From an uncultured Carboxylicivirga sp. (GTDB taxonomy: Bacteria; Bacteroidota; Bacteroidia; Bacteroidales; Marinilabiliaceae), in the NCBI GenBank assembly GCA_947503525.1, contig CANNEA010000002.1, forward strand, positions 1,293,679 through 1,357,678: a stretch of DNA of 64,000 bases, in the 5' to 3' direction. Of the stretch, positions 10,664 to 30,729 are shown in pieces; the stretch's first letter is position 1, and the number at the start of each line of letters is the position of its first letter. The notes beneath the pieces were generated by a model. It saw nothing but the letters and a program-made list of their open reading frames with translations. It had not been told where the DNA came from and made no database searches. A program made the position numbers and the translations under genes.

Positions 10664-10768
10664 ATATGAAACGAACATGTAAATTTTAATCTTAAAAATT
10701 ACACACAGGGTAATGATTAAAATTTCTTGAGAGTTCCATGTGACCATGAAGAAATAAATTTTAGACAC
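10664..10768 (+). promoter_or_regulatory. Repeated structured 5' leader, copy C
   Basis: Contains the box ATATGAAACGAACATG (10664-10679), a stem AAATTTTAATC (10681-10691)/GATTAAAATTT (10715-10725), an inner stem ATTAC (10698-10702)/GTAAT (10710-10714) whose loop and flank hold ACACACA, then GAGAGTTCCATGTG. The GAAACGA box lies 101 nt before the downstream ATG. Two other genes in the window have the same arrangement (19.6 and 30.6 kb). Confidence 0.6.
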
Positions 10769-11752
10769 ATGAAAAGATATACGTATTTAATTATTCTTGT
10801 ATTAATATCAATAAGTCATACAATACTAGGTAAAGATCAAGTTGAACAGGACAGCAGTTCAGTTGTCTATCCATATTTATTTCCAATATGGGGTGATGCA
10901 GCTACAGAACGAGGCTATAAATTACAGTTACCTCATGGCATTATGTCCAACAATTTTTACAATGTGCAGGATTTATTAATTTCTGATCTTCAATTATCCT
11001 TAGATGACAATGCTTTAATGCCTATCGATTTTGTGGAATTTGGTAAGGTCAATGCAAAGGTTATTACAACAAATGTAAGGGTCGATACCTGGGTGCTTCC
11101 ATTTATTAATGTTTATGGGTTTGGTGGGTATTTAAGTGCGCAGATGGAAGTCAACTTAACGAAACCTGTTCCAATAACTACCAATACAACTAACAGAGGT
11201 ACTTATTACGGATTTGGACTTATGGCAGCAGGCAAAGCAGGCCCCTTGTTTATAACCGGTGATGTCAACTTTGCCTGGACAAACCTTGAGTTGTTGAAAA
11301 AGCCAACTTTGGCGCGTATTATGGGGCTTCGGGTTGGTCATCGCTTTAATGTTAGAAATAAACCACAACAAAATATTGCTGTCTGGATAGGGCTTATGAA
11401 TCAACATTTGGGAAGTAATACCGTAGGGAGTATCACTGTGAGTAATGCTTTAGATTTATCCGAAGATGAAATAAAGGAGATTGAAGATTGGTATGATGGA
11501 TTACCAGAAGGGCCTGCCAAGGAAATAGTAGGAGGTATTCTTGAAGATATTGCCAATCCTTCAGACACGAAAATTAATTACAGTATTAAAAAAGATCTTA
11601 AGAGCAAATGGAATGGCTTAGTTGGGGCTCAATGGCAAATAAATGAACATTGGCAGTTACGTTCAGAATTTGGATTTGGCAGTAAGCAACAAACTTTAGT
11701 TTCCCTCAACTATCGTTTTGGAATAAGGGGTAAAAATTTTAAATCAAAATAG
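10769..11752 (+). CDS. Exported barrel-like protein, function unknown, 327 aa
   Basis: The ATG at 10769 gives a signal peptide (MKRYTYLIILVLISISHTILG). An earlier in-frame ATG at 10727 lies inside the structured leader and would add a charged non-signal extension, so it is rejected. The body has alternating strands such as 'VDTWVLPFINVYGFGGYLSAQ', 'GTYYGFGLMAAGKAGPLFITGDVNFAW', 'QNIAVWIGLMNQHLG' and ends 'QTLVSLNYRFGIRGKNFKSK', consistent with an outer-membrane barrel. An acidic helical insert (LSEDEIKEIEDWYDGLPEG) interrupts it near residue 230. No family is recognised. It is the first gene of a sub-operon preceded by the repeated leader, which suggests separate control from the genes upstream. 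Confidence 0.55.
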   Translation: MKRYTYLIILVLISISHTILGKDQVEQDSSSVVYPYLFPIWGDAATERGYKLQLPHGIMSNNFYNVQDLLISDLQLSLDDNALMPIDFVEFGKVNAKVITTNVRVDTWVLPFINVYGFGGYLSAQMEVNLTKPVPITTNTTNRGTYYGFGLMAAGKAGPLFITGDVNFAWTNLELLKKPTLARIMGLRVGHRFNVRNKPQQNIAVWIGLMNQHLGSNTVGSITVSNALDLSEDEIKEIEDWYDGLPEGPAKEIVGGILEDIANPSDTKINYSIKKDLKSKWNGLVGAQWQINEHWQLRSEFGFGSKQQTLVSLNYRFGIRGKNFKSK

Positions 11753-11806
11753 AGGTGTTTCAATAAGTGAGCCTTTATTAATACTAACAATAATAAATAC
11801 CGTATT

Positions 11807-12379
11807 ATGAATAAATTAACAACAATACTACTAGCCTTAGTTTTGGTTTCATGTTCAGGTTTAAAAGTCACAAGTGATATGGATCCTTCAGTAGATTTTA
11901 CACAGTATAAAACCTTTGAATATTATGGTTGGGCTGAAGAAAGTGATCAGGTGATGAATGATTTGGATAAGCGCCGAATTGAACAGGCTTTTGGGAAAGA
12001 GTTTAAGAGTCGCAATATGGATTTGGTTGAATCTGGCGGAGATTTAATTGTGACCTTATTTATTGTGGTGGAAGATAAAACCGAAAAAAGTGCCACAACC
12101 ACGCATATGGGTGGACATGGTGGATACTATGGCGGTTATTATGGCTATGGTCCGGGCTGGGGCTGGGGTCCTAGTTATTCCACAACAACGGTTCAGGAAT
12201 ATGATTATAGCGAAGGTACTTTAGTGGTTGATATTTTTGATGCCAAGGAGAAGAAACTCATTTGGGAGGGTATTGGCCGAAACACCATCGCGGAAGATCC
12301 TCAGGTGAGAGCGAATCATATACCAAAGGCTGCCGCAGCCATTATGAAGGACTTTCCTGTAAAACCAGTTCAGGAATAG
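11807..12379 (+). CDS. DUF4136 domain lipoprotein, 190 aa
   Basis: The lipobox LVSCS places the lipidated Cys at residue 16. The body matches DUF4136: 'SDMDPSVDFTQYKTFEYYGW', 'DKRRIEQAFGKEFKSRNMDLVESGGDLIVTLF', a Gly/Tyr-rich linker (GGYYGGYYGYGPGWGWG) and 'EGTLVVDIFDAKEKKLIWEGIGRNTI'. The family is widespread in Bacteroidota and Proteobacteria envelopes and has no established biochemical role. It is 54 bases after the previous stop and 26 before the next start, so it is probably in the same transcript. Confidence 0.85.
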   Translation: MNKLTTILLALVLVSCSGLKVTSDMDPSVDFTQYKTFEYYGWAEESDQVMNDLDKRRIEQAFGKEFKSRNMDLVESGGDLIVTLFIVVEDKTEKSATTTHMGGHGGYYGGYYGYGPGWGWGPSYSTTTVQEYDYSEGTLVVDIFDAKEKKLIWEGIGRNTIAEDPQVRANHIPKAAAAIMKDFPVKPVQE

Positions 12380-12405
12380 TATTTAAAACTTTAAAATCAT
12401 AGCAT

Positions 12406-13098
12406 ATGCGATTATTCAGAAAGACCATTGAATCAGTAGTTCAGGCTGGGGATTATAGTGAAGCCCAGCTGGAACGTGGTTTTACACAACTCGGAAGATT
12501 AGGGACTATCATTGATGTGCTCTATGCCCTCATGATCTTTCGTGTGTTCTTAATGCTCCCCCGACCTGAGGTGGATAATTTTGGAGCAGATGAATTAGTC
12601 GATGTCTTAAAAGCCAGTTATATGAATTATCTGGCCATGTTTGTAGGATTAGTATTAATACTAATCTATTGGGGGCAGAGTAATCTGATGTTTGGCAATA
12701 TGATTCGAACGGATGGTAAACATTCTGTTTTATCTCTGTTGCAGGCCTTTTGCTTAATGATCTATCTCTATTTTGTAAGGCTTGATGTGCAATTTGATGG
12801 CGCTGTAATAACTTTGCAGGTGGAGAGTGTCTCCTTGGCTTTAGCAGGGTTTTTCTCAATAGCCTCATGGTATTATGCCATTAAAAACAACATGTTAAGT
12901 CCGGCAATTGAATTGGAAGAAAAACAGAATGTGTATCTTAAACTGATGCCTGAACCAATAGTGTCGGTGCTATCCTTTCCATTTGCCTATTTCGGGCCGG
13001 ATATTTGGACCATTTCATGGTTAATGTTAATTCCTGTTGGAATGATACTAAAGCGATTTAGAACTAAATTGGTTAAAGAAGAAGTGACAAACCAGTAA
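12406..13098 (+). CDS. TMEM175-like (DUF1211) integral membrane protein, 230 aa
   Basis: About six hydrophobic segments are visible (roughly residues 34-51, 70-90, 106-124, 138-160, 183-198, 200-215). The first has an Asp and a helix pattern (IDVLYALMIFRVF), similar in placement to the FSDGVFAI motif of TMEM175/DUF1211 potassium channels, and 'IYWGQSNLMFGNMIRTDGKHSVLSLLQAFCLMIYLYF' resembles the family's second half. The key FSD motif is not conserved, so assignment is tentative. It is 6 bases upstream of a potassium-channel gene, which fits a cation-transport role but does not prove it. Confidence 0.4.
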   Translation: MRLFRKTIESVVQAGDYSEAQLERGFTQLGRLGTIIDVLYALMIFRVFLMLPRPEVDNFGADELVDVLKASYMNYLAMFVGLVLILIYWGQSNLMFGNMIRTDGKHSVLSLLQAFCLMIYLYFVRLDVQFDGAVITLQVESVSLALAGFFSIASWYYAIKNNMLSPAIELEEKQNVYLKLMPEPIVSVLSFPFAYFGPDIWTISWLMLIPVGMILKRFRTKLVKEEVTNQ

Positions 13099-13104
13099 GA
13101 GACT

Positions 13105-13770
13105 ATGAAGAAGTTAATTGCCAAATACGATAGTCAGCTTAATGGAGGGTACCTTTTGTTGGTCTTGCTGATCATTCAATTATTTATAGTTGCGGTGCTA
13201 CCCATAAGGATGCACGCACTAATCTATGATATTGTATTAACATTGATTTACCTGAGTTTAACTCTGGTTATTGATCAGAAAAGGACCATTTGGTTTTTTT
13301 ATATCATCGTACTGATTGTAATGGAATGGCTTTTTGAATTACTTGAATTAGCTATACTAAGTCAGATCTCTTATGTTTTAACTCTTTTTTTATTTCCATA
13401 TGTAATCCTGCGTTTTATTGCCATGATCATGCATTCAAAAAAGGTTAATGCATTGGTGCTGTTACAATCCATTAATGCCTATTTGTTACTTGGACTGTTA
13501 AGTAGTATCGCAATCAATTTCATAATCACTTTTAATCCTTCGTCATTTAATTTCCCTGATACAGGTTTATTTGCTGATGGAGTAAGTCGCTTAAGTGAAT
13601 TTCAATATTATGGTTTGGTCACCATCTCCACCCTGGGTTTTGGTGATATAACGCCAGCAACACCTCTTGCACGTTCTGTAAGCACTTTTATTACCATTAT
13701 TGGTCAGCTATACATTGCTATTATTCTGGCCATGTTGGTTGGCAAGTATTCCGGAGAATCTAAAAAGTAA
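13105..13770 (+). CDS. Potassium channel, ion_trans_2 type, 221 aa
   Basis: The pore signature is at residues 174-181, ISTLGFGD, with the usual following ITP and a final transmembrane helix (SVSTFITIIGQLYIAIILAMLVG). GFG in place of GYG is an accepted potassium-selectivity filter. Before it are four hydrophobic segments (about residues 16-32, 40-56, 63-80, 90-108) and a pore-lining helix at 117-142, so the layout is six-helix-like without a recognisable voltage-sensor arginine ladder. No C-terminal RCK or cyclic-nucleotide domain is present; the protein ends just after the last helix. It lies in the inner membrane. The gene follows the TMEM175-like gene by 6 bases and is 4 bases before the next start. 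Confidence 0.8.
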   Translation: MKKLIAKYDSQLNGGYLLLVLLIIQLFIVAVLPIRMHALIYDIVLTLIYLSLTLVIDQKRTIWFFYIIVLIVMEWLFELLELAILSQISYVLTLFLFPYVILRFIAMIMHSKKVNALVLLQSINAYLLLGLLSSIAINFIITFNPSSFNFPDTGLFADGVSRLSEFQYYGLVTISTLGFGDITPATPLARSVSTFITIIGQLYIAIILAMLVGKYSGESKK

Positions 13771-13774
13771 AAAT

Positions 13775-14467
13775 ATGAAACGATTACTCTTATTAGTTTT
13801 TGCATTATCAGGCCTTATCATCTATGGTCAAACAGATAAAAGTCCTTTCCTTTTGGAACGGGAAGCAACTAAGGCCACTACATTTTTTGCAGAAGTATAT
13901 CCTTATAGCTCATGGTCGAGTTTAAATAAGCAAAGTGTAAGTGTATTTGAGATGGCAGGTGGTATTCTCATTCGCAATAAGTTTTATGTGGCTTATTTTA
14001 CGGCCAATTCACCCAGTGTAAACAAAGTAGCTGTTCCTGATCAGGGATCAGAGGAGTATCTTAAGTGGATAGAGGCAGGTGTTGAATTGGAAAAGGTTAG
14101 TGCTGAAACTGAATTTTTATTGGTTAAATTTCACCATTCAGGTTTAAAATTTGGTTATCTTCATAATGCTGATAAAATGGTGTATTGGCGTGCGGGCCTG
14201 AAGTGGGGTTTCTCTGGAGGGTTTCATCTGACTGAAGATAAAACCTTTATGGGTATGTTTGATAATAAGGTGTATAAAAGTAAAATTATGACCTTGGAGC
14301 CTGACCTTGGACTAGGGATTAATCTATTGCCTTGGTGGCGTGCCCATATTGATTTAGGTTACCGCCTGGTGAGTGTAGATGAGCGAATTATTGCCTCGGC
14401 GGATGCAGATAGTTTTACCTTTAGTTTAGGTTTTTCGTTTGGGCGTTTTGGGCCGAAAAAAGATTAA
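13775..14467 (+). CDS. Exported protein of unknown function, 230 aa
   Basis: The ATG at 13775 gives a signal peptide (MKRLLLLVFALSGLIIYGQ). An earlier in-frame start at 13700 would overlap the channel gene by 70 bases and is rejected. The body contains 'FAEVYPYSSWSSLNKQSVSVFEMAGGILIRNKFYVAYF', 'KFGYLHNADKMVYWRAGLKWGFSGGF' and ends in a barrel-like strand 'SFTFSLGFSFGRFGPKKD'. It could be a small outer-membrane barrel. I do not recognise a family. It is sandwiched between a potassium channel and a PAP2 gene. Confidence 0.55.
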   Translation: MKRLLLLVFALSGLIIYGQTDKSPFLLEREATKATTFFAEVYPYSSWSSLNKQSVSVFEMAGGILIRNKFYVAYFTANSPSVNKVAVPDQGSEEYLKWIEAGVELEKVSAETEFLLVKFHHSGLKFGYLHNADKMVYWRAGLKWGFSGGFHLTEDKTFMGMFDNKVYKSKIMTLEPDLGLGINLLPWWRAHIDLGYRLVSVDERIIASADADSFTFSLGFSFGRFGPKKD

Positions 14468-14489
14468 GAAATTAAATAAACCAAATACT

Positions 14490-15998
14490 ATGAAAAAGAA
14501 CAAATATGGATTTATGCTTGTCCTGCTTATAGCCTTACCCTTATTTGCTCATGCAAATCCAACTAACATACAATTAGTTGATGAGGTATTGAATTTAAAG
14601 CTGGAACAGCCTCAGCTAAACTATAAGTCCGCAGGTTATTTAAGTGGTGTTGATTATGCCTTAACACCAATGTACAGTCTTCCACAAGAAACTGTTGAGG
14701 TAGAAAAAGTGAAATGGTACAATACCAGAGCAGCACGTATATCCTATGTGCCTGTTACATTTTTCGCCTTGGGAGCCATATCCTGGCCTTATCGCGAAGA
14801 TGTTAGAGAATGGAGAAATCGATTTATACCGGATTATCACAATGCCTTTGATGATGTTCTTCAATATTTACCAATTATGGCTGTTTATGGTTTAAATTGG
14901 GCCGGAGTAGAAGGTAAACATGGTTTAAAGCGAACAACGGTAACCTGGGCTATGTCTTTAGGTATGATGGGTATTTTAGTGAATGGAATTAAATACACTA
15001 CTAAAGTGATGCGTCCGGACGGATCCTCAGCCAATGCTTTTCCTTCAGGTCATACTGCAATGGCTTTTGTAAGTGCTACCATGTTGCATAAGGAGTTTGG
15101 TCAGTACAGGAGCCCTTTATACTCCTTTTTTGGATATGCCGCTGCCGGTTGGACGGGCACAATGCGTCAGATGAATAACAGGCATTGGGTGTCGGATGTA
15201 TTGGTTGGAGCAGGTATTGGTATATTAACCACCGAAGTTGCCTATATACTGGCTGAACAAATATATGATGAGAAAGAAACCAATCCAATAAAAAAATATG
15301 AACCCAAACCTTTCTCTGATCAAAAACCATCATTTCTATCTGTAAAAATTGGATTTGCCTCACCGATGGGTGATTTGGCCAATTCGGAAGAAGGAGCCTA
15401 TACAACTAATGGATTTACAGCGGGCTTTGAAGGAGCCTACTTCTTTAATCGCAATATTGGTATTGGAGGTGAAATGTCCATTACCTCATTCCCTATAAAT
15501 AGTGACAAAATAGAATTATTGCCTGAAGTTGCACCATATGTTGAATTGTCGTCTACTGGTCAAGGTTATGAATTACTGACAGAGGCAATGGGAGCTGCTT
15601 ATTATGTATTAGGTCCTTACGGCTACGTTGATCTTTCTCAGAAATTTGGCATACTATTTAATGTGGCAGCAGGTTATTCACGCGGCGCCGAAGGGCAAGT
15701 TTTAGCCAAGCTTAGCGAGACTGCTCAAGAAGAGATTGGTCTTGAAGAGCTTGTCATCAGTCGATATGAGCCCGAAGATGCTTTTGCATGGAATACAGGT
15801 GGCCAATTGTGGTATAAGTTAAATGATAAAATAGCTATTGGTGCTTATACACGCTTCATGTTTAATAAACCGAAACTAAATATTTATGATATCGTAGATA
15901 TTGATGATAATGATGAACCCATATTCGAATATACCGAAAGCAGTAAATTTGATTTCTCCCATTGGTCATTGGGTTTTTCGATAAACGCAATTTTATAA
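14490..15998 (+). CDS. PAP2-family phosphatase fused to an outer-membrane-type barrel, 502 aa
   Basis: The ATG at 14490 gives a signal sequence (MKKNKYGFMLVLLIALPLFAHA). Residues about 80-255 are a PAP2 domain with the three phosphatase motifs: K168-x6-R175-P176, P185-S-G-H188 and R226-x5-H232-x3-D236. From about residue 290 the protein changes to barrel-like strands ('SFLSVKIGFASPMGDLA', 'GFTAGFEGAYFFNRNIGIGGEMS', 'YGYVDLSQKFGILFNVAAGYS', 'HWSLGFSINAIL'). PAP2 enzymes remove phosphate from lipids such as undecaprenyl diphosphate or lipid A; here the attached barrel suggests action at the outer membrane (inference). All catalytic residues are present. Confidence 0.8.
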   Translation: MKKNKYGFMLVLLIALPLFAHANPTNIQLVDEVLNLKLEQPQLNYKSAGYLSGVDYALTPMYSLPQETVEVEKVKWYNTRAARISYVPVTFFALGAISWPYREDVREWRNRFIPDYHNAFDDVLQYLPIMAVYGLNWAGVEGKHGLKRTTVTWAMSLGMMGILVNGIKYTTKVMRPDGSSANAFPSGHTAMAFVSATMLHKEFGQYRSPLYSFFGYAAAGWTGTMRQMNNRHWVSDVLVGAGIGILTTEVAYILAEQIYDEKETNPIKKYEPKPFSDQKPSFLSVKIGFASPMGDLANSEEGAYTTNGFTAGFEGAYFFNRNIGIGGEMSITSFPINSDKIELLPEVAPYVELSSTGQGYELLTEAMGAAYYVLGPYGYVDLSQKFGILFNVAAGYSRGAEGQVLAKLSETAQEEIGLEELVISRYEPEDAFAWNTGGQLWYKLNDKIAIGAYTRFMFNKPKLNIYDIVDIDDNDEPIFEYTESSKFDFSHWSLGFSINAIL

Positions 15999-16023
15999 TT
16001 CTTAAATTATTTTGGTATTATAT

Positions 16024-16051
16024 AAGGCTGCCTTGAGGTGGCTTTTTTTTT
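16024..16051 (+). terminator. Rho-independent terminator of the envelope cluster
   Basis: AAGGCTGCC (16024-16032) pairs with GGTGGCTTT (16037-16045), with three G-T pairs, across a TTGA loop and runs into nine Ts. Confidence 0.8.
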
Positions 16052-16102
16052 GCTTTAAAGTCAAGAAAAAGTAGCTTTTGAGGGTATAGGTTTTGCAGAT
16101 GT

Positions 16103-16134
16103 TTTGAGAGCAATTATGAATGTTTCTATATTTG
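16103..16134 (+). promoter_or_regulatory. Bacteroidota-type promoter for the PUL regulator
   Basis: TTTG (16103-16106), 20-base spacer, TATATTTG (16127-16134) match the TTTG / TAnnTTTG consensus. An overlapping second -7 candidate, TATCTTTG, is at 16136-16143. Confidence 0.7.
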
Positions 16135-16384
16135 TTATCTTTGTTTAGGAAAATTGCCCATCGATTTATTGAAGATTAATTGTTGTCAATGACTGAAGAT
16201 TAAAATTACAAACACACACAGAAACTAATATTTCTTCTGACAGAACCCTATTTAATTAACGTTTACGTATTGAAAGATTGCTTGCAAAAGATGATTTAAG
16301 TAAAGTGTCATAAATCATTAAAACAAATTAGCTTGCATGATGCAAGGTATGATAGGAAGAATATTAGTTAAATACTTGAACAAT

Positions 16385-19479: not shown

Positions 19480-19562
19480 ATATGAAACGAACATGAAAAA
19501 TCTACATTCATTTTTACACACAATAAGGATGAATCGATTTTGCTTGAGCGTGACATATGACA
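19480..19562 (+). promoter_or_regulatory. Repeated structured 5' leader, copy D (tandem)
   Basis: Box ATATGAAACGAACATG (19480-19495). The stem pairs AAAATC (19497-19502) with GATTTT (19536-19541) and ATTCAT (19506-19511) with ATGAAT (19529-19534). ACACACA (19516-19522) is in the loop, and GAGCGTGACATATGACA follows. It stands 98 nt upstream of copy A. Confidence 0.55.
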
Positions 19563-19621
19563 ATAAAAATTACAATCATATGAAACGAGCCATGAGAATT
19601 GCTTCACACACAGAAGCATGA
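19493..19621 (+). CDS. Possible 42-aa leader peptide upstream of SusC
   Basis: An ATG inside the first leader box opens a 42-codon frame that runs through both leader copies and stops at 19621, 62 bases before the SusC start. Its end reads MKRAMRIASHTEA, encoded by the second box and its hairpin. Copy C has a short frame of the same beginning (MKRTCKF). The frame may simply be a consequence of the RNA structure; no codon evidence supports translation. Confidence 0.25.
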   Translation: MKNLHSFLHTIRMNRFCLSVTYDNKNYNHMKRAMRIASHTEA

Positions 19622-19683
19622 TTAATCCCGATAGCTATCGGGAGGCGAGTTCCATTTGGCAATAAAAAACAAAATTTAAACAC
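19578..19683 (+). promoter_or_regulatory. Repeated structured 5' leader, copy A, before SusC
   Basis: Box ATATGAAACGAGCCATG (19578-19594), stem TGCTTC (19600-19605)/GAAGCA (19613-19618) with loop ACACACA, a perfect palindrome, then GCGAGTTCCATTTGGC (19645-19660). The GAAACGA box is 102 nt before the SusC ATG. Confidence 0.6.
19626..19643. repeat. Perfect 18-base palindrome TCCCGATAGCTATCGGGA
   Basis: Self-complementary over all 18 bases. A degenerate version (TCCCGATAGCTTTTTGGGA) is at 30686-30704 inside another leader copy at a different position. Palindromes of this form are dispersed in other Bacteroidota genomes as far as I recall, so it is probably an independent mobile or structural repeat. 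Confidence 0.65.
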
Positions 19684-22600
19684 ATGAAAAAACTAAAACT
19701 ATTTCTTGTTGCAATGCTAATGTTTAGCGCGGCAAGTTTATTTGCTCAAACCTTATCCATCTCCGGTACGGTTACAGATAAACTTGGAAGCCCAATACCG
19801 GGAGTTAACATTACAATTAAGGGAACTGCGATAGGTGTGATTTCTGATATTAATGGTAGCTATAATATCGAAAATGTATCTCAGGGTGCTACTCTGGTAT
19901 ACTCATTCATTGGGATGCAAACTCAGGAGATTCAAATGGCCAACAGAACAACAACAGGGCCTTTAAATATAATTTTAGAGCAGAGTTTTATTGGACTTGA
20001 CGAGGTGGTAGCAGTAGGTTATGGAACAAGAAAGAAGAGTTCATTAACAGCAGCTATTTCTTCAGTTGGAGAAAAAGATATTGAGAAAACACAAAACTTA
20101 AGAGTGGAACAGGCTTTACAAGGACGTACTGCAGGTGTTACAGTAACAAGTAGTTCTGCTCAACCAGGAGCCGGCATGTCAGTACGTATTCGCGGGGCCG
20201 GAACAAATGGTAATTCCGATCCGCTTTATATAGTTGATGGATTACCGGTTGGAGGCATTGATTATCTGAATCCTAGTGATATCGCAAGTATAGAAATATT
20301 AAAAGATGCCGCATCATCTTCTATTTATGGAGCACGTGGTGCCAATGGAGTTGTGCTTATTTCTACTAAAAAAGGGAAAGAGCAAGAGTTCACGGTTACC
20401 TACGATGGTTTCCACAGTATTCAGAATCCGGAACGTAAGTTATCCTTGATGAATGCCGATCAGTATACTTTATACTATAATGAAGCTGAATTAAATGATG
20501 GTGTAAGACCAACAGCTTTTAATCGTCGCGCTGATACGGATTGGCAAAATGAAATATACAACAGAAATGCGCCAATGATGAATCATAGCGTAACGCTTAA
20601 CGGAGGAAACGAAAGAGCGAAGATTTCAACCGGTATATCTTATTTTGGCCAGGAAGGATTGGTAGCACCTAATAACTCCAACTATAATCGTATAACGGCC
20701 CGTGTAAATGCCGACACAAAAAGTCATAATGGGAAACTGCGCACGGGTACATCGTTCTACTATTCCAATATTAAAAGTAGTGGAATAGATGTAAATAATA
20801 TATACGGAGGACCTTTGGCTTCGGCCTATAATCTGGATCCATTGACTCCTGTGTATGACGAAAATGGCGAATATGGTGTGTCGGACTATGTGTCTCAGGG
20901 TATTACCAATCCGATCGGGAAAATGGAATATCTTCATTCACAAACCAGAACGGACAAGTTTGTAGGTAATATGTTCCTGGAATACAGTATTCTGAAAAAT
21001 CTGAAATTCAAAAGTTCATATGGTATTGACATGGCTTATGTGACATGGGAGAATTATAACCCTGTATACAAGCTGAGTCCTTCAGATTATAATTTGATTG
21101 ATGACGTACAAAAAAGCATGACCCGTTATTTTAATTATAACTGGGAGAATGTATTTACTTACGATCTTGACATTAAAGAACACAGTATTGATGTAGTAGC
21201 AGGTACAACCATATTAGAAGAAACATCCCATAACCTCTGGGGTAAAGGTGTTGATATTACAAAAACACCTAAGGGAAGTGACTATGCCTACATTGATAAT
21301 ACATTAAATGATAAAGAAACACGTGAATCAAGCGGAGGAATGGGGATTCCTAACAGATTACTTTCCTTCTTTTCACGTGTTAATTACGACTATAATGAGA
21401 AGTACTTTGTGTCGGCTACTTTCAGAGCCGATGGATCGTCAAGGTTTGGCCCGGATAATAAATTCGGTTATTTCCCTTCTTTCTCAGGAGGATGGGTAAT
21501 AACGAATGAAAATTTTGCTGCCCCACTTAAAAACATTAGCAACTTTATTAAATTAAGAGCCAGTTGGGGCCAAAACGGAAGTAACCACATCGGCAATTTT
21601 GTATATGTTTCAAATATAACGGATGCAGGTAGATATGTAACAGGTAATCCTATTACAGGTGGTTTATCGCAACAGGGTTTAGCACCAAACACTATACCCA
21701 CGCCTGATATTCGCTGGGAAACATCGGAGCAAACAGACATAGGTGTCGACGCTCACTTCCTGAATAGTAAATTTAGATTTACCTTCGACTTTTACAACAA
21801 GCTAACAAAGGACCTGTTGTTAGAGGTTAAAATCCCGGGGCATTACGGAAGTAACTCTCCAATTGATAATGCAGCTGAAGTTCAAAACAGAGGATATGAA
21901 TTTGAATTGGGCTACAACGATAAAGCGGGAGACTTTTCCTGGGGTGCCAATGCAAATATTTCCTTTAACGAGAATAAAGTAACCTACATCGGTAATGATG
22001 AAAAAGTACTGGGTGGTGCTGTAGTTCAAACCTATGGGCTAGTAACCAGAGCTGAAGAAGGCGAACCTATTGGTTATTTCTGGGGATATGAAACGGATGG
22101 CTTATTCCAGAATCAAAGTGATATTGACAACATGCCGGTATCGGTAAATGATAATGGTGATATTGTAAGAATGTTACCTAATGCACAGCCTGGTGATGTA
22201 CGATATGTTGATCAAAATGGCGATGGGATATTGGATGATAATGATAAAATCAACCTGGGTAATGCCAATCCTGAGTATTTTTATGGATTATCCTTGTTTG
22301 CTGATTGGAAGGGATTTGATGCTTCTATATTTATGCAAGGAGCAGGAGGTCACCAGATCGCAAATCTATCAAGACGTTTAGATGCCGGACTAACCAACCT
22401 GCCAACCACAGTACTTGAACGTTGGACTGGTGAAAATACCACAAATAGTGAGCCTCGAGCATCCATAGATGATCCAAACAGAAACTACAGCCTGTTTTCT
22501 GACAGATATGTAATTGATGGAGACTACTTAAGGATTAAGAATATTCAGTTAGGCTATACTTTCAATAGCAAAACTCTATCAAAATTGAGAATTCAGAATC

Positions 22601-22755
22601 TTAAGCTTTATGTGGCTGCACAAAATGTATACACATTCACCAAGTATCCGGGTGTAGATGTAGAATTTGGTTCAGGAACCATCAATTCAGGAGTTGATAC
22701 CGGAACATATCCACAAGCCAGAACATTCACGGTTGGTATGAACCTGAGATTTTAA
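19684..22755 (+). CDS. SusC/RagA-family TonB-linked outer-membrane transporter, 1023 aa
   Basis: Imports oligosaccharides across the outer membrane together with SusD. A signal peptide ends at LFAQ (residue 22). Residues about 23-100 form the carboxypeptidase-like regulatory domain ('SISGTVTDKLGSPIPGVNITIKGT...DINGSYNI'). Then come the TonB-box region and plug ('DEVVAVGYGTRKK', 'VRIRGAGTNGNSDPLYIVDGLPVGG', 'IEILKDAASSSIYGARGANGVVLISTKKG'). A long barrel follows, ending 'TFTVGMNLRF' with terminal Phe. Length and motifs are standard for the family. It is followed by SusD with a 65-base gap and preceded by the tandem structured leader. Confidence 0.96.
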   Translation: MKKLKLFLVAMLMFSAASLFAQTLSISGTVTDKLGSPIPGVNITIKGTAIGVISDINGSYNIENVSQGATLVYSFIGMQTQEIQMANRTTTGPLNIILEQSFIGLDEVVAVGYGTRKKSSLTAAISSVGEKDIEKTQNLRVEQALQGRTAGVTVTSSSAQPGAGMSVRIRGAGTNGNSDPLYIVDGLPVGGIDYLNPSDIASIEILKDAASSSIYGARGANGVVLISTKKGKEQEFTVTYDGFHSIQNPERKLSLMNADQYTLYYNEAELNDGVRPTAFNRRADTDWQNEIYNRNAPMMNHSVTLNGGNERAKISTGISYFGQEGLVAPNNSNYNRITARVNADTKSHNGKLRTGTSFYYSNIKSSGIDVNNIYGGPLASAYNLDPLTPVYDENGEYGVSDYVSQGITNPIGKMEYLHSQTRTDKFVGNMFLEYSILKNLKFKSSYGIDMAYVTWENYNPVYKLSPSDYNLIDDVQKSMTRYFNYNWENVFTYDLDIKEHSIDVVAGTTILEETSHNLWGKGVDITKTPKGSDYAYIDNTLNDKETRESSGGMGIPNRLLSFFSRVNYDYNEKYFVSATFRADGSSRFGPDNKFGYFPSFSGGWVITNENFAAPLKNISNFIKLRASWGQNGSNHIGNFVYVSNITDAGRYVTGNPITGGLSQQGLAPNTIPTPDIRWETSEQTDIGVDAHFLNSKFRFTFDFYNKLTKDLLLEVKIPGHYGSNSPIDNAAEVQNRGYEFELGYNDKAGDFSWGANANISFNENKVTYIGNDEKVLGGAVVQTYGLVTRAEEGEPIGYFWGYETDGLFQNQSDIDNMPVSVNDNGDIVRMLPNAQPGDVRYVDQNGDGILDDNDKINLGNANPEYFYGLSLFADWKGFDASIFMQGAGGHQIANLSRRLDAGLTNLPTTVLERWTGENTTNSEPRASIDDPNRNYSLFSDRYVIDGDYLRIKNIQLGYTFNSKTLSKLRIQNLKLYVAAQNVYTFTKYPGVDVEFGSGTINSGVDTGTYPQARTFTVGMNLRF

Positions 22756-22820
22756 TCATAAAAAAAATGAAGCATTACGCATTTACAATAATGCTAATGA
22801 ATACAAATAGTCTATACGTT

Positions 22821-24350: not shown

Positions 24351-24372
24351 GCAAATAAAAAAATATAATACT

Positions 24373-25356: not shown

Positions 25357-25386
25357 CTTGCTTAATAAATCTAAAAAAGGATTGAA

Positions 25387-26562
25387 ATGAAAAAAATACT
25401 ATATACAATCGCTACTGTTTTAATGATTTTTGCGGTAGCCTGCGAAAAAGAAAACACACCCAAAAACTGGGATGAGAATTTAATTGATCTCGATGTGTCT
25501 TTCACTGACGTATCAAGCCAGATAGGTATTGCCAATAGCTATGAGTTTGTTAATAATACGCCTGAACTGAGTTATATCGAGTGGGATTTTGGTAACGGAA
25601 CAACACTTCGACAGGAGTCTGGTATTATTATTTACACAGTTGATGGAACTTATCAACCAAAAGTAACTGCAGTTTATGGAAATAGAGTAAACGAAAAAAC
25701 TTTCGATGAAATATCAGTTACGGCAGAAGAGCTAATTATGGTTAGTCATGTCTCTACTCCGGGAGAAGCGGGAGAAGAAAATTTAAGACAACTGAAGATA
25801 AATGCAGATGCATCAACCGTCTTTACAGAAAGTCGTTGGGATTTTGGTAGTGGTACCTGGGTAAATTCTACAACCACCGATACAGTTGTACGCTATCTGG
25901 ATGCCGGTACATACACTGTTAAGTATGAAGCCAGGGTTCAGGAAGCAATATTAAGCGCAGAGGCCACTATTACAATTGCAGATGGTAATATCCAAAAAGA
26001 AAGTGTATTGTTTAACAATTTTGATGATTCCCCTGCCTATCCGGGCTCATGGCTAGAGGCGAATGGTGATACAAAGTTGTTTAACGACTATAATCCGGGA
26101 ACCAACCCGTATGAATTTGACGGAAGCAATGTGCTACTGATGGGTAAAACCGGAGGTTGGTGGACCGAAGGTCGCTATGAATTGTCTAATGGTGCACTTA
26201 ATTTTTCTGACGAATATACAGAAGTTGCACTTCGTGTTTATTTAGAAGGTAGTACTGTAAACATTGGAGGAGCAGATTACAACTTTGATATGCCAGAAAA
26301 TGAAAGGTTATTAAAGATTGGCCTTACAACTATTGACTCCTGGGATGGGCGTGTTGAAGTAGAAGAAACCATTAGCGCAACAGATGCATGGGTAGATATC
26401 TCATTTGATTTCACAGACAAAGATTTTTCGCATGGTAACATTAATCCGTCAGACATTAAATATCTATGGGTAATGCTAAGTCATGGTAAGGGAACACATG
26501 GCGTGATCTATGTGGATGATATCGTTCTAAAGAAAGAATATCCGGGAATTAAAAAGCCATAG
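25387..26562 (+). CDS. PKD-domain surface lipoprotein, paralogue of the preceding protein, 391 aa
   Basis: The lipobox AVAC puts the lipidated Cys at residue 19. Two PKD-like units are visible ('SYIEWDFGNGTTLRQESG' near residue 59 and 'SRWDFGSGTWVNSTTTD' near 155). The C-terminal beta-sandwich is homologous to the neighbour's ('FNNFDDSPAYPGSWLEANGDTKLF', 'NVLLMGKTGGWWTEGRYELS', 'IKYLWVMLSHGKGTHGVIYVDDIVL'). A tandem duplication with an added PKD unit is the simplest explanation. It is likely a second surface glycan-binding lipoprotein of the locus, 30 bases downstream of the first. Confidence 0.8.
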   Translation: MKKILYTIATVLMIFAVACEKENTPKNWDENLIDLDVSFTDVSSQIGIANSYEFVNNTPELSYIEWDFGNGTTLRQESGIIIYTVDGTYQPKVTAVYGNRVNEKTFDEISVTAEELIMVSHVSTPGEAGEENLRQLKINADASTVFTESRWDFGSGTWVNSTTTDTVVRYLDAGTYTVKYEARVQEAILSAEATITIADGNIQKESVLFNNFDDSPAYPGSWLEANGDTKLFNDYNPGTNPYEFDGSNVLLMGKTGGWWTEGRYELSNGALNFSDEYTEVALRVYLEGSTVNIGGADYNFDMPENERLLKIGLTTIDSWDGRVEVEETISATDAWVDISFDFTDKDFSHGNINPSDIKYLWVMLSHGKGTHGVIYVDDIVLKKEYPGIKKP

Positions 26563-26580
26563 TTACTTGTATTGGAAAAT

Positions 26581-26612
26581 GCAGAAAGGTGATAATCTAA
26601 ACATCTTTCTGC
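26581..26612 (+). terminator. Intercistronic hairpin before GH5 gene
   Basis: GCAGAAAGGTG (26581-26591) pairs with CATCTTTCTGC (26602-26612), with one G-T pair, over a 10-base loop. What follows is TTACTCTC, not a T-run, so it may tune expression between the binding-protein and enzyme genes. Confidence 0.5.
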
Positions 26613-26643
26613 TTACTCTCAAAAATTAAAACCAGCAAATAAG

Positions 26644-29600
26644 ATGCGATATACATTCCTTTTTATAGCAATAACATTAAGCCTTTTTGCAGTCCATGCT
26701 CAAACACTGACCACAGATGGTATGCTTATAAAAGATGACCAGGGGCAAAAGGTTATCTTACGGGGTATTGGCACCGGTAACTGGGTGTTGATGGAAGGCT
26801 ATATGATGAAAACTGCTGGTGTAGCAGGCACACAGCACGAGTTTCGTGAAAAACTAACAGAGGCTATTGGTGAGGCCGCTACTGATGAATTCTTCGAACT
26901 CTGGTGGAATAACCATATGACCAAAGCGGATGTTGATTCCATGGCCAAGTGGGGGTTTAACAGTTTGCGTATAGCAATGCACTACAATCAGTTTACACCT
27001 CCGATTGAAGAAGAAAGTGCTTCTGATCTGAGCTCGAAAAACTATACCTGGTACCAAAGTGGTTTCGATAGGGTGGATGATGTATTGAGTTGGTGCGAAG
27101 CCAACAATATGTACCTGATTCTGGACTTACATGCTGCACCGGGAGGACAAGGCCGTAATGCTGATATCTGTGATTACGATCCCGACAAGCCTTCTTTATG
27201 GGAAGATGTAAACAACCGCCATAAAATGGTGGCCTTATGGAGTAAGTTGGCCGAAAGGTATAAAGATGAGCCGTGGATTGGTGGCTATGATCTATTGAAC
27301 GAAACCAACTGGGATGAATTAAAGGACAATGGTAATGAAATGTTATGGAGCCTACTCGAAGAGTGCACGGATGCAATAAGAGCGACAGGTGACGATCATA
27401 TTATTTATCTGGAAGGCAACGACTGGGCCAATAACTACGACGGTTTACCAGATCCTTTGTGGGATGACAATATGGTGATTAGTTTCCATAAATACTGGAA
27501 TAATGTAGATGCCAACTCACTGGATTGGATTATCGAAAAAGGGGAACACTACAATGTGCCTCTATGGCTCGGCGAAAGCGGTGAGAATTCAAACGTTTGG
27601 TACACCCATCTTATTGAACTGTGTGAAAGTAAGAACATAGGATGGTCGTGGTGGCCGGTTAAAAAGAACGGTATCAACAACGTGATGTTTGTGGAGGAGC
27701 CAGCTGCTTATAAGCAATTGATTGATGGATGGAGAAGCAGTGAAACATCTGATGACCTTACCGGACAAGCTGCAATTGATGCAGTTACAGAATGGGCCAA
27801 CATGCATAAGATTGAAAATGTAACCGTTATGCATGATGTTATTGATGCCATGATACGTCAGCCTCACACTTATGATACAAAGCCATATAAGAAACATAGC
27901 GTAGGTGATTTAACATGGTTTGCCGACTATGATATGGGACGCAATGGATATGCCTATTGGGATACTGATACGGCAAACCTAAGTCAGGTGACTGAATATA
28001 CAGATTGGAATGCAGGCTGGGCTTATCGTAGCGATGGTGTTGATATACAACATACCTCAGACAAAAATCAAGATGGTTCCTTTGTTGGTGCGCCTTATAA
28101 TGTAGGCTGGACAGCTGATAATGAATGGATGCAATACACCATTAACAATCCTGCAGAACAAGCTTACACACTAAACATTCGCCATTCAGGTAATGCCTCA
28201 AAGTTTAGGTTAATGGCCAATGGTGTGGATATAACATCGGTATTGGAGGTACCTTCTACTGCCAACTATGACAACTGGGCAACAACGCCGTTTGAAAATA
28301 TCATTTTGCCCGCAGGAGAGCTTAAAGTTGTGTTTTATATAGAGCAAGGCGGTTCGAACTTTAACTATTTCGAATTTACTGATCCTAAAGCAATTGATAA
28401 TGTAGAGTTTAAAGCCTTTTCTTCTGAAATCAGTACCGCCGGGGATAAGTTATTTCTCACACTCAATAAAGCCGTAAGTTCTGGTGGAGAATTGCAAATA
28501 AACGATTTTACATTATCGGGTAATACAAGTAATGGGGTGGAACTAAATGCCGTAAAAGTAAATGCTGAAAACGCGAAGATATTAGAGTTCTCACTTAATA
28601 ATACCTTTACTTACTTTGATGAGGTGGCATTGAGCTACGCAGGCACCAGTGTTAAATCAGGCGCACAGGCATTGACAAATTTTTCTAATCTGGCGGTGGC
28701 CAATACTTTACCATTGCGCCATGCATTACCGGGCAAAATACAAGCCGAAGATTTCCATGTTAATTATGGATTTACTTTTGAAAACACCTCAGATGAGGGA
28801 GGTGGCCAAAATTCATCTCATGCACGTGACGGGTATTACCTGGACTACTTGATAACAGTTCAGAACACAGCCTATTACGATTTAAGCTTACGCATAGCCA
28901 CCGAACACAATGCTCCAAAGCTATCCATGTGGTTAAGTGATGATGAGGGGCTAACATTTAACTCTGTTGCCGAATTTAAATTAAGCAGCACAGGTGGTTG
29001 GGGCACATGGGAAACCCAATCCGGCCCAACACTCTTGTTAAATAAAGGAAACTATCATCTTCGTCTAAAGGTGGAACAGCAGGAGCATAACCTCAATTGG
29101 TTCGAATTTAAACAGGCAAGCGAAACCATTTCAGATGATCCGGATGAGATTTATTCAGCAAGCAATTTTAATATAGCATATGAATCTCCATCCTGTTACC
29201 AATTGGATAATGGCAGTATTACTATTCTAAGTAAAGTTGCTCCAATAAATGTGATCTTAAACGATGGGAGTACACATCCCATCAGTCAGAACATCGAGTA
29301 TACAATAAACGATCTGGCTGCAGGAGAATATTCTCTTGTAGCCACATCCATTAATAACTATGAAAGTTACCATACAGTAATATTAAAGGAAGCAGAAGCA
29401 TTAAAAAGTAAAGCTACTGTAGAAGGAAGCAGTGTTTCATTTACCATTGAAGGAGGCGAAGCACCGTATACTTTGAATGTAAACGGACAAACACATACCT
29501 CCAACACCACCTTATTTACTCTAAAAAACTTATCGCCGGGAAAGTATTCAGCAAGCATACAAGACAATAATCAATGCTCTGAAAACTCAGACTTGTTATT

Positions 29601-29856
29601 TACAATCCGATCCATAGAATTATATCCCAATCCGGTCAACAATGGAATATTATATGTCAATTGTCCAGTCTCAATGGAAGAGCAAAAGTATTTGGTTGAG
29701 ATTTATTCCATTAATGGCCAGTTGATTTCATCGAAACTATATGAGGCCGTAAATAGCCAAATCACACTCAATGTAAGCCGATTGACAAAAGGAACTTATC
29801 TATTAAAACTATCTAATGATAGCCAGGTAGAAACCAACAGCTTTATAGTGCTATAG
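26644..29856 (+). CDS. GH5-family glycoside hydrolase with two CBM-like domains and a T9SS sorting domain, 1070 aa
   Basis: Secreted glycanase. A signal peptide ends at VHAQ (residue 20). Residues ~25-365 form a GH5 barrel: 'RGIGTGNWVLMEGYMM', 'FNSLRIAMHYNQF', 'LILDLHAAPGGQ', acid/base E220 in 'DLLNETNW', 'VISFHKYWNN' and nucleophile E311 in 'LWLGESGENS'. CBM6-like jelly rolls follow at about 440-580 ('WTADNEWMQYTI...NFNYFEF') and 695-822 ('KIQAEDFHVNYG...NLNWFEF'), then an SprB-repeat-like stretch and a T9SS type A sorting domain (990-1070, 'ELYPNPVNNGILYVNC...GTYLLKL'). Probably acts on beta-glucan at or outside the cell surface; the subfamily cannot be fixed by eye. Confidence 0.88.
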   Translation: MRYTFLFIAITLSLFAVHAQTLTTDGMLIKDDQGQKVILRGIGTGNWVLMEGYMMKTAGVAGTQHEFREKLTEAIGEAATDEFFELWWNNHMTKADVDSMAKWGFNSLRIAMHYNQFTPPIEEESASDLSSKNYTWYQSGFDRVDDVLSWCEANNMYLILDLHAAPGGQGRNADICDYDPDKPSLWEDVNNRHKMVALWSKLAERYKDEPWIGGYDLLNETNWDELKDNGNEMLWSLLEECTDAIRATGDDHIIYLEGNDWANNYDGLPDPLWDDNMVISFHKYWNNVDANSLDWIIEKGEHYNVPLWLGESGENSNVWYTHLIELCESKNIGWSWWPVKKNGINNVMFVEEPAAYKQLIDGWRSSETSDDLTGQAAIDAVTEWANMHKIENVTVMHDVIDAMIRQPHTYDTKPYKKHSVGDLTWFADYDMGRNGYAYWDTDTANLSQVTEYTDWNAGWAYRSDGVDIQHTSDKNQDGSFVGAPYNVGWTADNEWMQYTINNPAEQAYTLNIRHSGNASKFRLMANGVDITSVLEVPSTANYDNWATTPFENIILPAGELKVVFYIEQGGSNFNYFEFTDPKAIDNVEFKAFSSEISTAGDKLFLTLNKAVSSGGELQINDFTLSGNTSNGVELNAVKVNAENAKILEFSLNNTFTYFDEVALSYAGTSVKSGAQALTNFSNLAVANTLPLRHALPGKIQAEDFHVNYGFTFENTSDEGGGQNSSHARDGYYLDYLITVQNTAYYDLSLRIATEHNAPKLSMWLSDDEGLTFNSVAEFKLSSTGGWGTWETQSGPTLLLNKGNYHLRLKVEQQEHNLNWFEFKQASETISDDPDEIYSASNFNIAYESPSCYQLDNGSITILSKVAPINVILNDGSTHPISQNIEYTINDLAAGEYSLVATSINNYESYHTVILKEAEALKSKATVEGSSVSFTIEGGEAPYTLNVNGQTHTSNTTLFTLKNLSPGKYSASIQDNNQCSENSDLLFTIRSIELYPNPVNNGILYVNCPVSMEEQKYLVEIYSINGQLISSKLYEAVNSQITLNVSRLTKGTYLLKLSNDSQVETNSFIVL

Positions 29857-29877
29857 AGCTCATTAATACAAAGAAAT

Positions 29878-30537
29878 ATGCGAACACAGATAATAATTTT
29901 AAGTTTAATGGTGGTTTTAATGGGATGTGGAAAATCTGAGGAGGTCAACCTTCCACCAACACAGCCAACATTGCTTTCTCCTGCGGATGGAACAAGTTGT
30001 GAATCATTAAAGCCTTCTTTCACATGGGAAGCAAGTGATCCGGAAAAAGATGAAATAACATATACCTTCTGGTTAGGAACTAGTGAAACAGATCTTAGCA
30101 TTGCAAAGGATGGCTTACAAAATGCACGCTACATTCCGACAAACAAGCTATTAATGTCAACCGTGTATTATTGGCAGGTTGAAGCCCACGATGGTACGTC
30201 AGGAACCTTAAGTGAAGTCATGTCATTTAGCACCACTGGTGAAGGAGAAAGCGGTGATCTTCCATCTCGACCAGTCATTGTAGCTCCCACAAATGATGTG
30301 GCATCAGGTAATATTACCTTTAGTTGGCAAGCCTCAAGCAAAGGCGAAGGAAGCATAGTATATGATCTGTACATCAAACATGGTGCTGCCTCTGATTTTT
30401 CGGTGCTTGAAGAAGGAACAAGTAATACATCGCATACGGCCGATTTAGCAGCGGGTACACTTAGCTGGTATGTGGCGGCCAGAGATAGCAGGGGCCAGAT
30501 GGCTCAGAGTACAACCATAAATATCACACTTAATTAA
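29878..30537 (+). CDS. Lipoprotein with two FN3-like domains, 219 aa
   Basis: The lipobox LMGC lipidates Cys17. Two repeated fibronectin-type-III-like units follow: 'PTQPTLLSPADGTSCESLKPSFTWEASDPEKDEITYTFWLG...STVYYWQVEAHDG' and 'PSRPVIVAPTNDVASGNITFSWQASSKGEGSIVYDLYIKHG...LSWYVAARDSRG'. These are common extracellular spacer or binding domains. There is no catalytic signature. Between GH5 and GH3 on the same strand, it may help bind glycan or position the enzymes at the surface (inference). Confidence 0.75.
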   Translation: MRTQIIILSLMVVLMGCGKSEEVNLPPTQPTLLSPADGTSCESLKPSFTWEASDPEKDEITYTFWLGTSETDLSIAKDGLQNARYIPTNKLLMSTVYYWQVEAHDGTSGTLSEVMSFSTTGEGESGDLPSRPVIVAPTNDVASGNITFSWQASSKGEGSIVYDLYIKHGAASDFSVLEEGTSNTSHTADLAAGTLSWYVAARDSRGQMAQSTTINITLN

Positions 30538-30628
30538 ACAGACCTTAAGTATTGACCAACAGTAGACCAATGAAGCCTTTTTATTACACCCATAAAAGAT
30601 GGCATTCGACATAAACAACTAAACAAAA

Positions 30629-30729
30629 GAAACGAGCCATGCGAAAGGATTCAGTTAAAAGCTGATTTTTTCGAGGTGAGTTCTATCCCGATAGCTTTTT
30701 GGGAGACCATTGTAAGTAAATACAGACAC
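30629..30729 (+). promoter_or_regulatory. Repeated structured 5' leader, copy B, before GH3
   Basis: Box GAAACGAGCCATG (30629-30641), stem CGAAA (30642-30646)/TTTCG (30669-30673) with ATTCAG/CTGAT inside, GTGAGTTC (30676-30683), then the degenerate palindrome TCCCGATAGCTTTTTGGGA (30686-30704). The ACACACA loop is absent, so this is the most diverged copy. The box is still 101 nt from the GH3 ATG. Confidence 0.5.

Follow-up and report, generated by a model that had tools for sequence, protein, structure and literature searches.

A 90-nt structured repeat at start codons of Carboxylicivirga and other Bacteroidota, very likely mobile

Introduction

Why does one short sequence box recur four times, on one strand only, within 64 kb of a bacterial genome? 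The stretch in question, called the window below, comprises 64,000 nucleotides from an uncultured Carboxylicivirga sp. (GenBank assembly GCA_947503525.1, contig CANNEA010000002.1, positions 1,293,679 to 1,357,678 of the forward strand). The box GAAACGARCN{0,1}ATG has exactly four matches there, at 10668, 19484, 19582 and 30629, all on the + strand, against 0.03 expected, and none of 100 shuffles reaches four. An initial annotation had placed the boxes at these same coordinates and had seen in them a structured 5' leader, that is a regulatory RNA element, of the genes behind them. The answer developed here is that the boxes belong to a DNA repeat of about 90 nt that encodes no protein. This repeat has probably been inserted, always in the same orientation, at the AT/GAA of start codons (the slash marks the junction), the gene then starting at the element's 3' ATG, and would be moved as folded single-stranded DNA, in trans, by a HUH (Y1) transposase.

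A short repeat at start codons

The element is delimited as the segment from the G of a 5' ATG through the T of a 3' ATG. The ATG-to-ATG length has a median of 90 nt and a range of 83-122 in the 198 copies that possess a 5' ATG, bounds set by the collecting pattern; copies of the window's own genome extend to 137 nt from box to ATG. The consensus is AT/GAAACGAGCC ATGAGA-loop-TTCTCA CACACA GGAGGATGATTAT ... GGCGAGTTCCATNTG[AG]C - A-rich - AATTATAAACAN'AT/GAAA-gene. Two subclasses are distinguished among the own copies: A carries GAGCCATG...GGCGAGTTCC (GAGCC...GGCGAGTTCC), while B carries GA[AG]CATG, a longer AT-rich stem and TTGAGAGTTCC. Tandem copies are arranged head-to-tail with one ATG in common. 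The own genome (G000; genomes are numbered with G and loci with L), of 6.56 Mb in 39 contigs, contains 29 exact copies of the pattern and none of the reversed pattern that served as control. A covariance model, R1, built from 18 of these 29 copies and including the pairings P1 and P3 described below, detects 48 places at E up to 0.1 with 150 candidates scored. Further copies, without which the initial annotation would have given up its proposal, are thus present in this genome, and more are found in relatives.

Orthologous genes were compared with and without the element. The cobA-like gene (cobalamin adenosyltransferase) occurs in all 14 genomes of the genus, and R1 finds the element at it in G000 only. 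In the 13 relatives the leader runs directly into ATGAA[AG]ATATA, and each 90-nt leader scores higher against the G000 DNA preceding the element than against the 90 nt of G000 immediately before the gene, by a small margin in five of the 13 (L154, L155, L156, L158 and L159). A TTGTTT box in the cobA leader, aligned ahead of the element, is presumably the native promoter box. At the trmH-like methylase gene, R1 places no element directly ahead of the gene in any of 13 relatives; G002 has a copy some 530 nt farther upstream, and in G010 a weak match (E 0.47) lies elsewhere in the locus. Ten of these relatives were read by eye, and three did not fit the reading pattern. A third gene, AI-2E-like as named by eye, bears the element in G046 and lacks it in G048, G049 and G044, a comparison that rests on these three relatives, with a fourth locus (L327, G047) outside the count. 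Since the orthologous leaders lead straight to ATGAA, the element's 5' ATG occupies the old start position. Taken with the unrelated downstream genes, the copy-number differences and the near-identical copies described below, these sites indicate that we are dealing first of all with a mobile repeat and not with the leader of co-regulated genes, and they make its mobility at start codons very likely.

Another copy follows 18 of 196 distinct copies with enough flank, an open reading frame (ORF) of at least 60 aa starts exactly from the 3' ATG in 135, a shorter frame (20-59 aa) follows in 13, and fewer than 20 aa in 30. Tandem copies aside, the 3' ATG therefore opens a long ORF in 135 of 178 cases (76%) against a site baseline of 23% (p about 3e-42, only a guide, because the uncalled DNA includes some coding sequence that went unrecognised and because the copies depend on one another). 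This crude baseline comes from contigs of at least 7 kb, where 256 of 1113 ATGAA sites are called starts and the other 857 lie in uncalled DNA. Two copies are intragenic: L097 lies near the last codons of a hemerythrin-like frame and L311 in a HEPN-like frame, both named by eye. Their scarcity speaks against efficient RNA splicing, and for purging of harmful insertions or a preference for start sites. At L126 (G010, reverse strand, about 1299-1320), two ATGAA at the start of a gene are separated by a 12-nt remnant, GAAACGAGCCAT, as though just the first part of an element had inserted or remained.

The proteins encoded behind the element are mostly unrelated. Pfam matches were obtained for 17 of 18 downstream proteins scanned in the own genome (for some, the first 400 residues only), among them cobalamin adenosyltransferase, amino acid kinase, SpoU methylase, GH3, GH95, TonB plug and esterase, others besides, and SusD-like twice. 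Among 141 downstream proteins, 19 related pairs appear at E up to 1e-8. Genes of a single pathway, as a riboswitch would accompany, are not what these families represent. A leader peptide was likewise considered and rejected. Roughly half of the own copies encode MKRAMRxxSHTxx in the frame that begins with the 5' ATG, yet the length of this frame varies and the unit is not kept in phase (76, 64 and 58 of 198 copies for the three remainders modulo 3). In 176 of 198 copies the frame ends no later than the 3' ATG, and of the 22 that run beyond, eight are in the gene's frame.

The copies of the window

The elements of the window, and the genes that begin at their 3' ends, are as follows.

10668..10770, + strand: copy 1, subclass B, from the G of the 5' ATG (10666-10668) to the T of the 3' ATG; it includes GAGTTCCAT at 10731-10739 and the guide CATGTG at 10737-10742
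10769..11752, + strand: gene downstream of copy 1, 327 aa, starting at the element's 3' ATG; its protein has no Pfam match
19484..19581, + strand: copy 2, subclass B, upstream partner of a head-to-tail pair
19582..19685, + strand: copy 3, subclass A, with hairpin TGCTTC/GAAGCA and loop ACACACA; it contains GGCGAGTTCCAT
19626..19643, + strand: palindrome TCCCGATAGCTATCGGGA within copy 3, an additional insert that most copies do not have
19684..22755, + strand: SusC/TonB-dependent receptor gene, 1023 aa, starting at the element's 3' ATG (Pfam Plug, CarbopepD_reg_2)
30629..30731, + strand: copy 4, subclass A, degenerate, AAAA replacing ..AT ahead of GAAACG
30686..30704, + strand: palindrome-like insert TCCCGATAGCTTTTTGGGA within copy 4
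30730..33051, + strand: GH3 glycoside hydrolase gene, 773 aa, starting at the element's 3' ATG

The spacings had been given correctly at the outset, 101, 102 and 101 nt from box to ATG and 98 nt between the tandem copies. The fixed box-to-ATG distance read into them is a coincidence among the window copies, since the 29 pattern copies of the own genome show values between 86 and 137 nt. A second box that had been pointed out, GAGTTCCAT, is not enriched by itself (16 matches with one mismatch against 15.1 expected), but it stands in register within the copies, exact in copies 1 and 3, with one change in copy 4 and more in copy 2.

In copy 1, the guide can pair with CACATG at 10766-10771, which contains the start codon. 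The guide of copy 2 (CATATG, 19554-19559) can pair with CATATG at 19577-19582, and the 3' ATG of this copy (19580-19582) doubles as the 5' ATG of copy 3, whose guide CATTTG (19653-19658) shows one mismatch to CACATG at 19681-19686. Copy 4 is without the AT of the 5' ATG, and the palindrome-like insert splits its guide region. Palindromes like TCCCGATAGCTATCGGGA or CCCGATAAATCGGGACAAGTAG are nested at two preferred places in some copies (copies 3 and 4, L001, L013, L016, L021, L025, L134, L258, L277); these CCCGATAGCTATCGGG-like palindromes look like repetitive extragenic palindromic (REP) repeats nested in the element. Unrelated to the element, the window also contains two giant ORFs, at 38449-46617 (2722 codons) and 47284-63213 (5309 codons).

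Distribution and copy number

All 14 genomes of the genus carry the element, with 47, 5, 52, 4, 12, 28, 21, 15, 19, 6, 146, 36, 66 and 6 copies at E up to 0.01; at most 150 candidates were scored per genome, so that the highest count (G010) is at least 146. In the family, 45 of 71 genomes and 16 of 21 genera are positive, several per-genome counts being lower bounds with 57 candidates scored. A sample of the phylum, with 10 candidates scored per genome, gives at least 11 of 395 genomes and 8 of 171 genera, the own included; two of these genomes lie outside the own class. The distant copies have the same design and precede frames resembling dnaN, murI, rdgB and others by eye. Hosts among the matches listed are Carboxylicivirga, Saccharicrinis, Labilibaculum, Labilibacter, Plebeiobacterium, Natronoflexus, Geofilum, Breznakibacter and Prolixibacteraceae. 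Within a single genome, 14 copies among 20 loci lie within 4 mismatches of one 90-nt unit, and their flanks are unrelated. Copies are spread through the Bacteroidota in hundreds, and the element, seated predominantly at start codons, is a real, widespread, structured and dispersed repeat.

Searched with one query copy, phage and plasmid records gave no match. Viral contigs gave none by the strict pattern and three by a looser one; these contigs from viral collections (L361, L362 and L363) each have a copy ahead of an ORF. Copies were also seen in metagenome-assembled genomes labelled Prevotella, Syntrophomonadaceae and Chitinophaga pinensis (L222, L229, L219, L265, L278), where mis-binning is possible. 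In three taxa (L069, L279, L290) copies precede one same gene (MKKFKVAITIEAETPETVQ...) and the 5' flanks are similar, which would fit either an old insertion that was kept or transfer between genera.

A predicted pseudoknotted fold

Folded singly, the window copies behave unevenly (z = -0.9, -3.9, -2.8 and -3.0 for copies 1-4), and for this reason the structural evidence is taken from the copies of relatives. R1 retrieved 112 matches in 100 loci from many genera, giving 111 distinct rows. Four pairings are proposed. P1 joins GAAAC-GA-GCC with GGC-GA-GTTCC and has tandem G-A oppositions inside; P2 is a variable hairpin adjoining CACACA; P3 joins the internal CATNTG with CAN'ATG at the 3' end; P4 joins TTAT with ATAA to form a pseudoknot and is not part of the covariance model.

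Mutual information, computed over 99 well-filled columns, ranks the column pairs 66-93 (P3), 15-54 (P1), 46-89 (P4), 10-59 (P1) and 68-91 (P3) at the top, with 67-92 (P3) seventh; the P4 pairs 47-88 and 49-86 come 16th and 22nd, amid pairs that belong to no helix. Over the 111 rows, 90.6% of the cells of the 22-pair structure are paired, compared with 82.5% in shuffles and 27-39% in slid versions (maximum 39.3%). Changes on both sides are found at 16 of the 22 pairs, in 171 cells against 56.8 in shuffles, and the covariation score is 0.214 against 0.092. None of 500 shuffles matches any of the five measures, the pseudoknot included. The shuffle test is open to inflation by relatedness; the slid control retains relatedness and is also far lower. 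P2 and P4 are paired at 81.7% and 84.0%, neither being fixed by the pattern or by the model structure; the variable pair of P3 is not fixed by the pattern, in an alignment fitted to R1, which holds P3. Folding energies lie below those of shuffles on average (mean z -2.41; 78 of 112 below -2). A conserved pseudoknotted fold is predicted, and the covariation fits it. The compensating stem changes noticed in the window find their counterpart here: paired positions covary in relatives, where an absence of covariation had been named as evidence to the contrary.

The ratio of G-T to A-C oppositions bears on the strand that folds. It favours the sense strand at 48-87 in P4 (19:1) and at 17-32 and 18-31 in P2 (5:1 and 7:1), and leans the other way at 46-89 and 47-88 in P4 (0:4 and 1:6) and in P1 (10:13 excluding 7-62, a pair that is A-C in 105 of 112). 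We lean towards folding of the sense strand, as RNA or as DNA.

That no named motif could be recognised in the window is corroborated by Rfam 15. The only match above the gathering score in the window is a tRNA elsewhere, and seven loci bearing copies have no match up to E 1; the part of the window that includes copies 2 and 3 yields a chance-level match alone, to the HtrA thermometer (16.2 bits where the cut-off is 52, E 1.8).

Junctions and the candidate guide segment

The junctions were examined in 217 copies gathered by pattern, of which five without a 3' ATGA were dropped, leaving 212. Of these, 198 have AT as the last two bases of the 5' flank. The base N of the internal CATNTG and the base N' near the 3' end are combined as A-T in 77, G-C in 63, C-G in 30 and otherwise in 9 of the 179 copies with CATNTG; a Watson-Crick pair of three kinds is thus kept in 170 of 179. 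Codon 2, whose last base the collecting pattern leaves free, was read in the 184 non-tandem copies that have 200 bases or more behind them; it is AAA in 172, AAT in 8, AAG in 2 and AAC in 1, with one ATGATC. Only 149 of 471 background starts have AAA there, and the excess persists among AAN codons (172 of 183 copies against 149 of 223 background starts, p about 3e-12). As ATGAA is repeated at both ends, the exact point of joining within it is ambiguous. From these patterns we infer a guide role for the internal segment GTTCCATNTG, which can base-pair with the 3' junction (CAN'AT/GAAA) and, without a shift of register, with the 5' junction (AT/GAAAC).

Proposed mechanism and points against it

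With about 90 nt the element is too small for a transposase gene. A HUH (Y1) transposase acting in trans on the folded single strand would mobilise it, and the guide GTTCCATNTG would pair with both junctions, so selecting ATGAA targets. After insertion, transcription from the native promoter would continue through the element, the old ATG would open a short, non-conserved frame, and translation of the gene would begin from the 3' ATG that the element brings, preceded by an A-rich stretch. Both P3, in which the start codon can be paired, and this A-rich stretch could be expected to tune initiation where Shine-Dalgarno sites are little used, an effect on the 3' ATG that is plausible. Initiation in Flavobacterium depends on upstream adenines and mRNA structure (PMC6847099). 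The element's -3 base is C, not the A favoured in Flavobacterium (PMC6847099).

The Y1 single-strand route appears the best of several, though by itself less probable than not. Among the family genomes, matches to Y1 (PF01797) occur in 39 of the 45 that bear the element and in 14 of the 26 that do not (p 0.004, uncorrected for phylogeny and genome size). Reverse transcriptase is similarly distributed (28 of 45 against 8 of 26, p 0.014); as a mobiliser it was rejected, 17 of the 45 element-bearing genomes giving no match. G046 has 26 reverse transcriptase matches, the highest number among the 71 family genomes. Beside some of its copies (L106, L124, L187, L192) lie fragments like RAYT-type transposases, possibly by chance in so copy-rich a genome; we take the frames to be RAYT-like, and they look truncated.

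A number of observations weigh against an insertion moved by Y1 and addressed by a guide. No mobilising gene was found among the Y1, RAYT and reverse transcriptase genes examined. Six of the 45 element-bearing family genomes give no PF01797 match, including G033, which has 27 copies and is 98% complete, and G046, with near-identical copies, has just Y1 fragments or weak RAYT-like matches. Around 24 Y1 loci, R1 gives three matches, one of them strong, and no clear linkage, so that a link of Y1 or RAYT genes to the copies is unsupported. No autonomous, transposase-bearing version occurs in 1.44 Mb of loci, mostly chosen for complete copies, and neither an intermediate nor a transposition event was observed. 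Of the non-tandem copies, 43 of 178 have no long ORF behind them. Pattern and filter together fix GAAACGA (first A or G), GAGTTCC and ATGA, whose conservation is by construction; most alignment rows (78 of 100 loci) come from a pattern fixing GAAACGARCCATG and GGCGAGTTCC, both strands of P1, and its 97.4% pairing is partly by construction for that reason. The wobble evidence on the folded strand is mixed across P4, P2 and P1. The -3 base of the 5' flank does not track the guide base, as expected if the element carries the 3' base alone. Finally, the 5' half of the guide-junction pairing is nearly invariant, with a conserved A-C opposition (105 of 112), and hence not open to a covariation test.

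In its boldest form, this proposal amounts to a nucleic-acid-guided start-codon transposon, the single guide GTTCCATNTG of a pseudoknot of about 90 nt gripping both its own ends and the next ATGAA and so rewriting the translation start; we regard this as a possibility on the doubtful side. If true, it would be a very small guide-addressed insertion system and a mobile, replaceable translation start, spread in hundreds of Bacteroidota copies and retainable as a start-codon switch. It would add a source of leader turnover in Bacteroidota and could account for some wrongly annotated starts and broken assemblies among the Marinilabiliales.

Alternative explanations

The regulatory RNA element first proposed for the window survives in part: the element is structured, covaries, has further copies and matches no Rfam family. 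As a cis-regulatory RNA, riboswitch-like or a translation switch, it would control the downstream genes and switch their initiation, its internal CAT pairing now with the first AUG, now with that of the gene; copying between genes would be secondary. The strong covariation, start-codon stem and pseudoknot included, would suit such a switch, as would the sense-strand wobbles at 48-87, 17-32 and 18-31 (other P4 pairs leaning opposite) and the few matches per genome that persist in some distant genomes, several of them ahead of conserved-looking genes. The tuning of Flavobacterium initiation through structure and upstream adenines points the same way (PMC6847099). However, P3 is short and no ligand or regulator is suggested. 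The leader of one gene set, rejected here as the primary reading, does not agree with mostly unrelated downstream families, with 4 to at least 146 copies within one genus or with orthologues that do without the element. We consider cis-regulation as the element's first role unlikely.

An RNA-guided recombinase, for example of the IS110 type (DEDD), might instead mobilise the element, GTTCCATNTG acting in RNA like a miniature bridge RNA. The bridge RNA of IS110 has a two-loop guide, whereas the guide considered here pairs with the same strand at both ends. The structured fold and the one internal segment able to pair with both junctions would accord with such a system, and bridge RNAs are known for IS110 (PMC11208160). 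This explanation seems to us unlikely too, and less probable than cis-regulation.

As a very small intron, self-splicing or reverse-splicing and spread by way of RNA and a reverse transcriptase, the element would restore the native AUG upon splicing. Removing the unit at AT/GAA does restore the native leader and start, the frame reads on in the two intragenic copies, a single segment can pair with each junction in the manner of an internal guide sequence, and reverse transcriptase is commoner in element-bearing genomes. Efficient splicing, though, predicts mostly intragenic copies, tolerated inside coding sequence; 135 of 178 copies are at starts, and the two clear intragenic cases lie at or near the 3' ends of their frames. 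The 17 element-bearing genomes that give no reverse transcriptase match (E up to 1e-10) include G010 with its at least 146 copies, and all introns are, to our knowledge, far above 90 nt. An intron is accordingly very improbable. Chance similarity or an assembly artefact, suggested by several G010 copies at contig ends, can be dismissed: the reversed pattern gives 0 against 29 matches, many copies lie inside a 5.9-Mb contig of G046, covariation exceeds all controls, and dispersed repeats themselves cause contig ends.

Comparison with known systems

HEARO and IscB-type elements have ATGA sites. A search for HEARO RNA found none in the 71 family genomes and is uninformative, since control genomes were equally without a match. 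Structured candidate RNAs of Bacteroidota, such as Bacteroidales-1, Flavo-1 and Bacteroid-trp, were described by Weinberg et al. 2010 (PMC2864571). The element is comparable in being structured and in occurring in this phylum; at the thresholds applied, the window and the seven copy-bearing loci match no family of Rfam 15 with it, a comparison that excludes Bacteroides-2 and GUCCY-hairpin, which have no Rfam entry.

The IS200/IS605 family, with its non-autonomous derivatives, provides the closest points of contact with the Y1 route. Its members insert after a target of 4-5 nt; in IS608, guides carried by the element pair with both cleavage sites and insertion occurs 3' of a short target, and ISDra2 prefers a particular next base (TTGAT/G) (PMC5934647). 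The element appears to share the single orientation, the short fixed target, the absence of a visible duplication beyond the shared ATGAA, a segment able to pair with cleavage-like junctions, a hairpin near one end and head-to-tail copies; like ISDra2 (PMC5934647), it strongly prefers the base after its target. Unlike IS200/IS605, it totals about 90 nt, is pseudoknotted and targets mostly start codons; a single guide would serve both its ends, whereas that family has distinct left and right guides, each located at the 5' foot of a hairpin. No transposase is linked to it and some copy-rich genomes have no Y1 match at all; the element is not assigned to this family.

With REP and REPIN sequences, moved by RAYT (TnpA-REP), the element has in common that it is short, protein-less, structured and present in high copy number (PMC8266576, PMC3116915). 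It is unlike them in sitting at start codons and in not being a simple palindrome with a GTAG motif (PMC8266576), no GTAG-preceded palindrome being present in its consensus. The CCCGATAGCTATCGGG palindromes nested in some copies are more REP-like than the element itself.

RUP, BOX, Correia, ERIC and the miniature inverted-repeat transposable elements (MITEs) are small non-autonomous repeats able to alter the expression of neighbouring genes. The element is likewise small and non-autonomous. It differs from MITEs in that its ends (GAAACGA... and ...CANAT) are not inverted repeats, in having no usual target-site duplication, in supplying a start codon and in its covarying pseudoknot. A repeat that lands mostly on start codons, with a single covarying guide in a pseudoknot that might grip both ends, appears new as far as the open-licence literature was searched, most subscription papers and a 2017 list of 224 candidate RNAs lying outside that scope. 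Small non-autonomous repeats are already known; what sets this one apart is its landing mostly on start codons, by which a gene would be given a new start.

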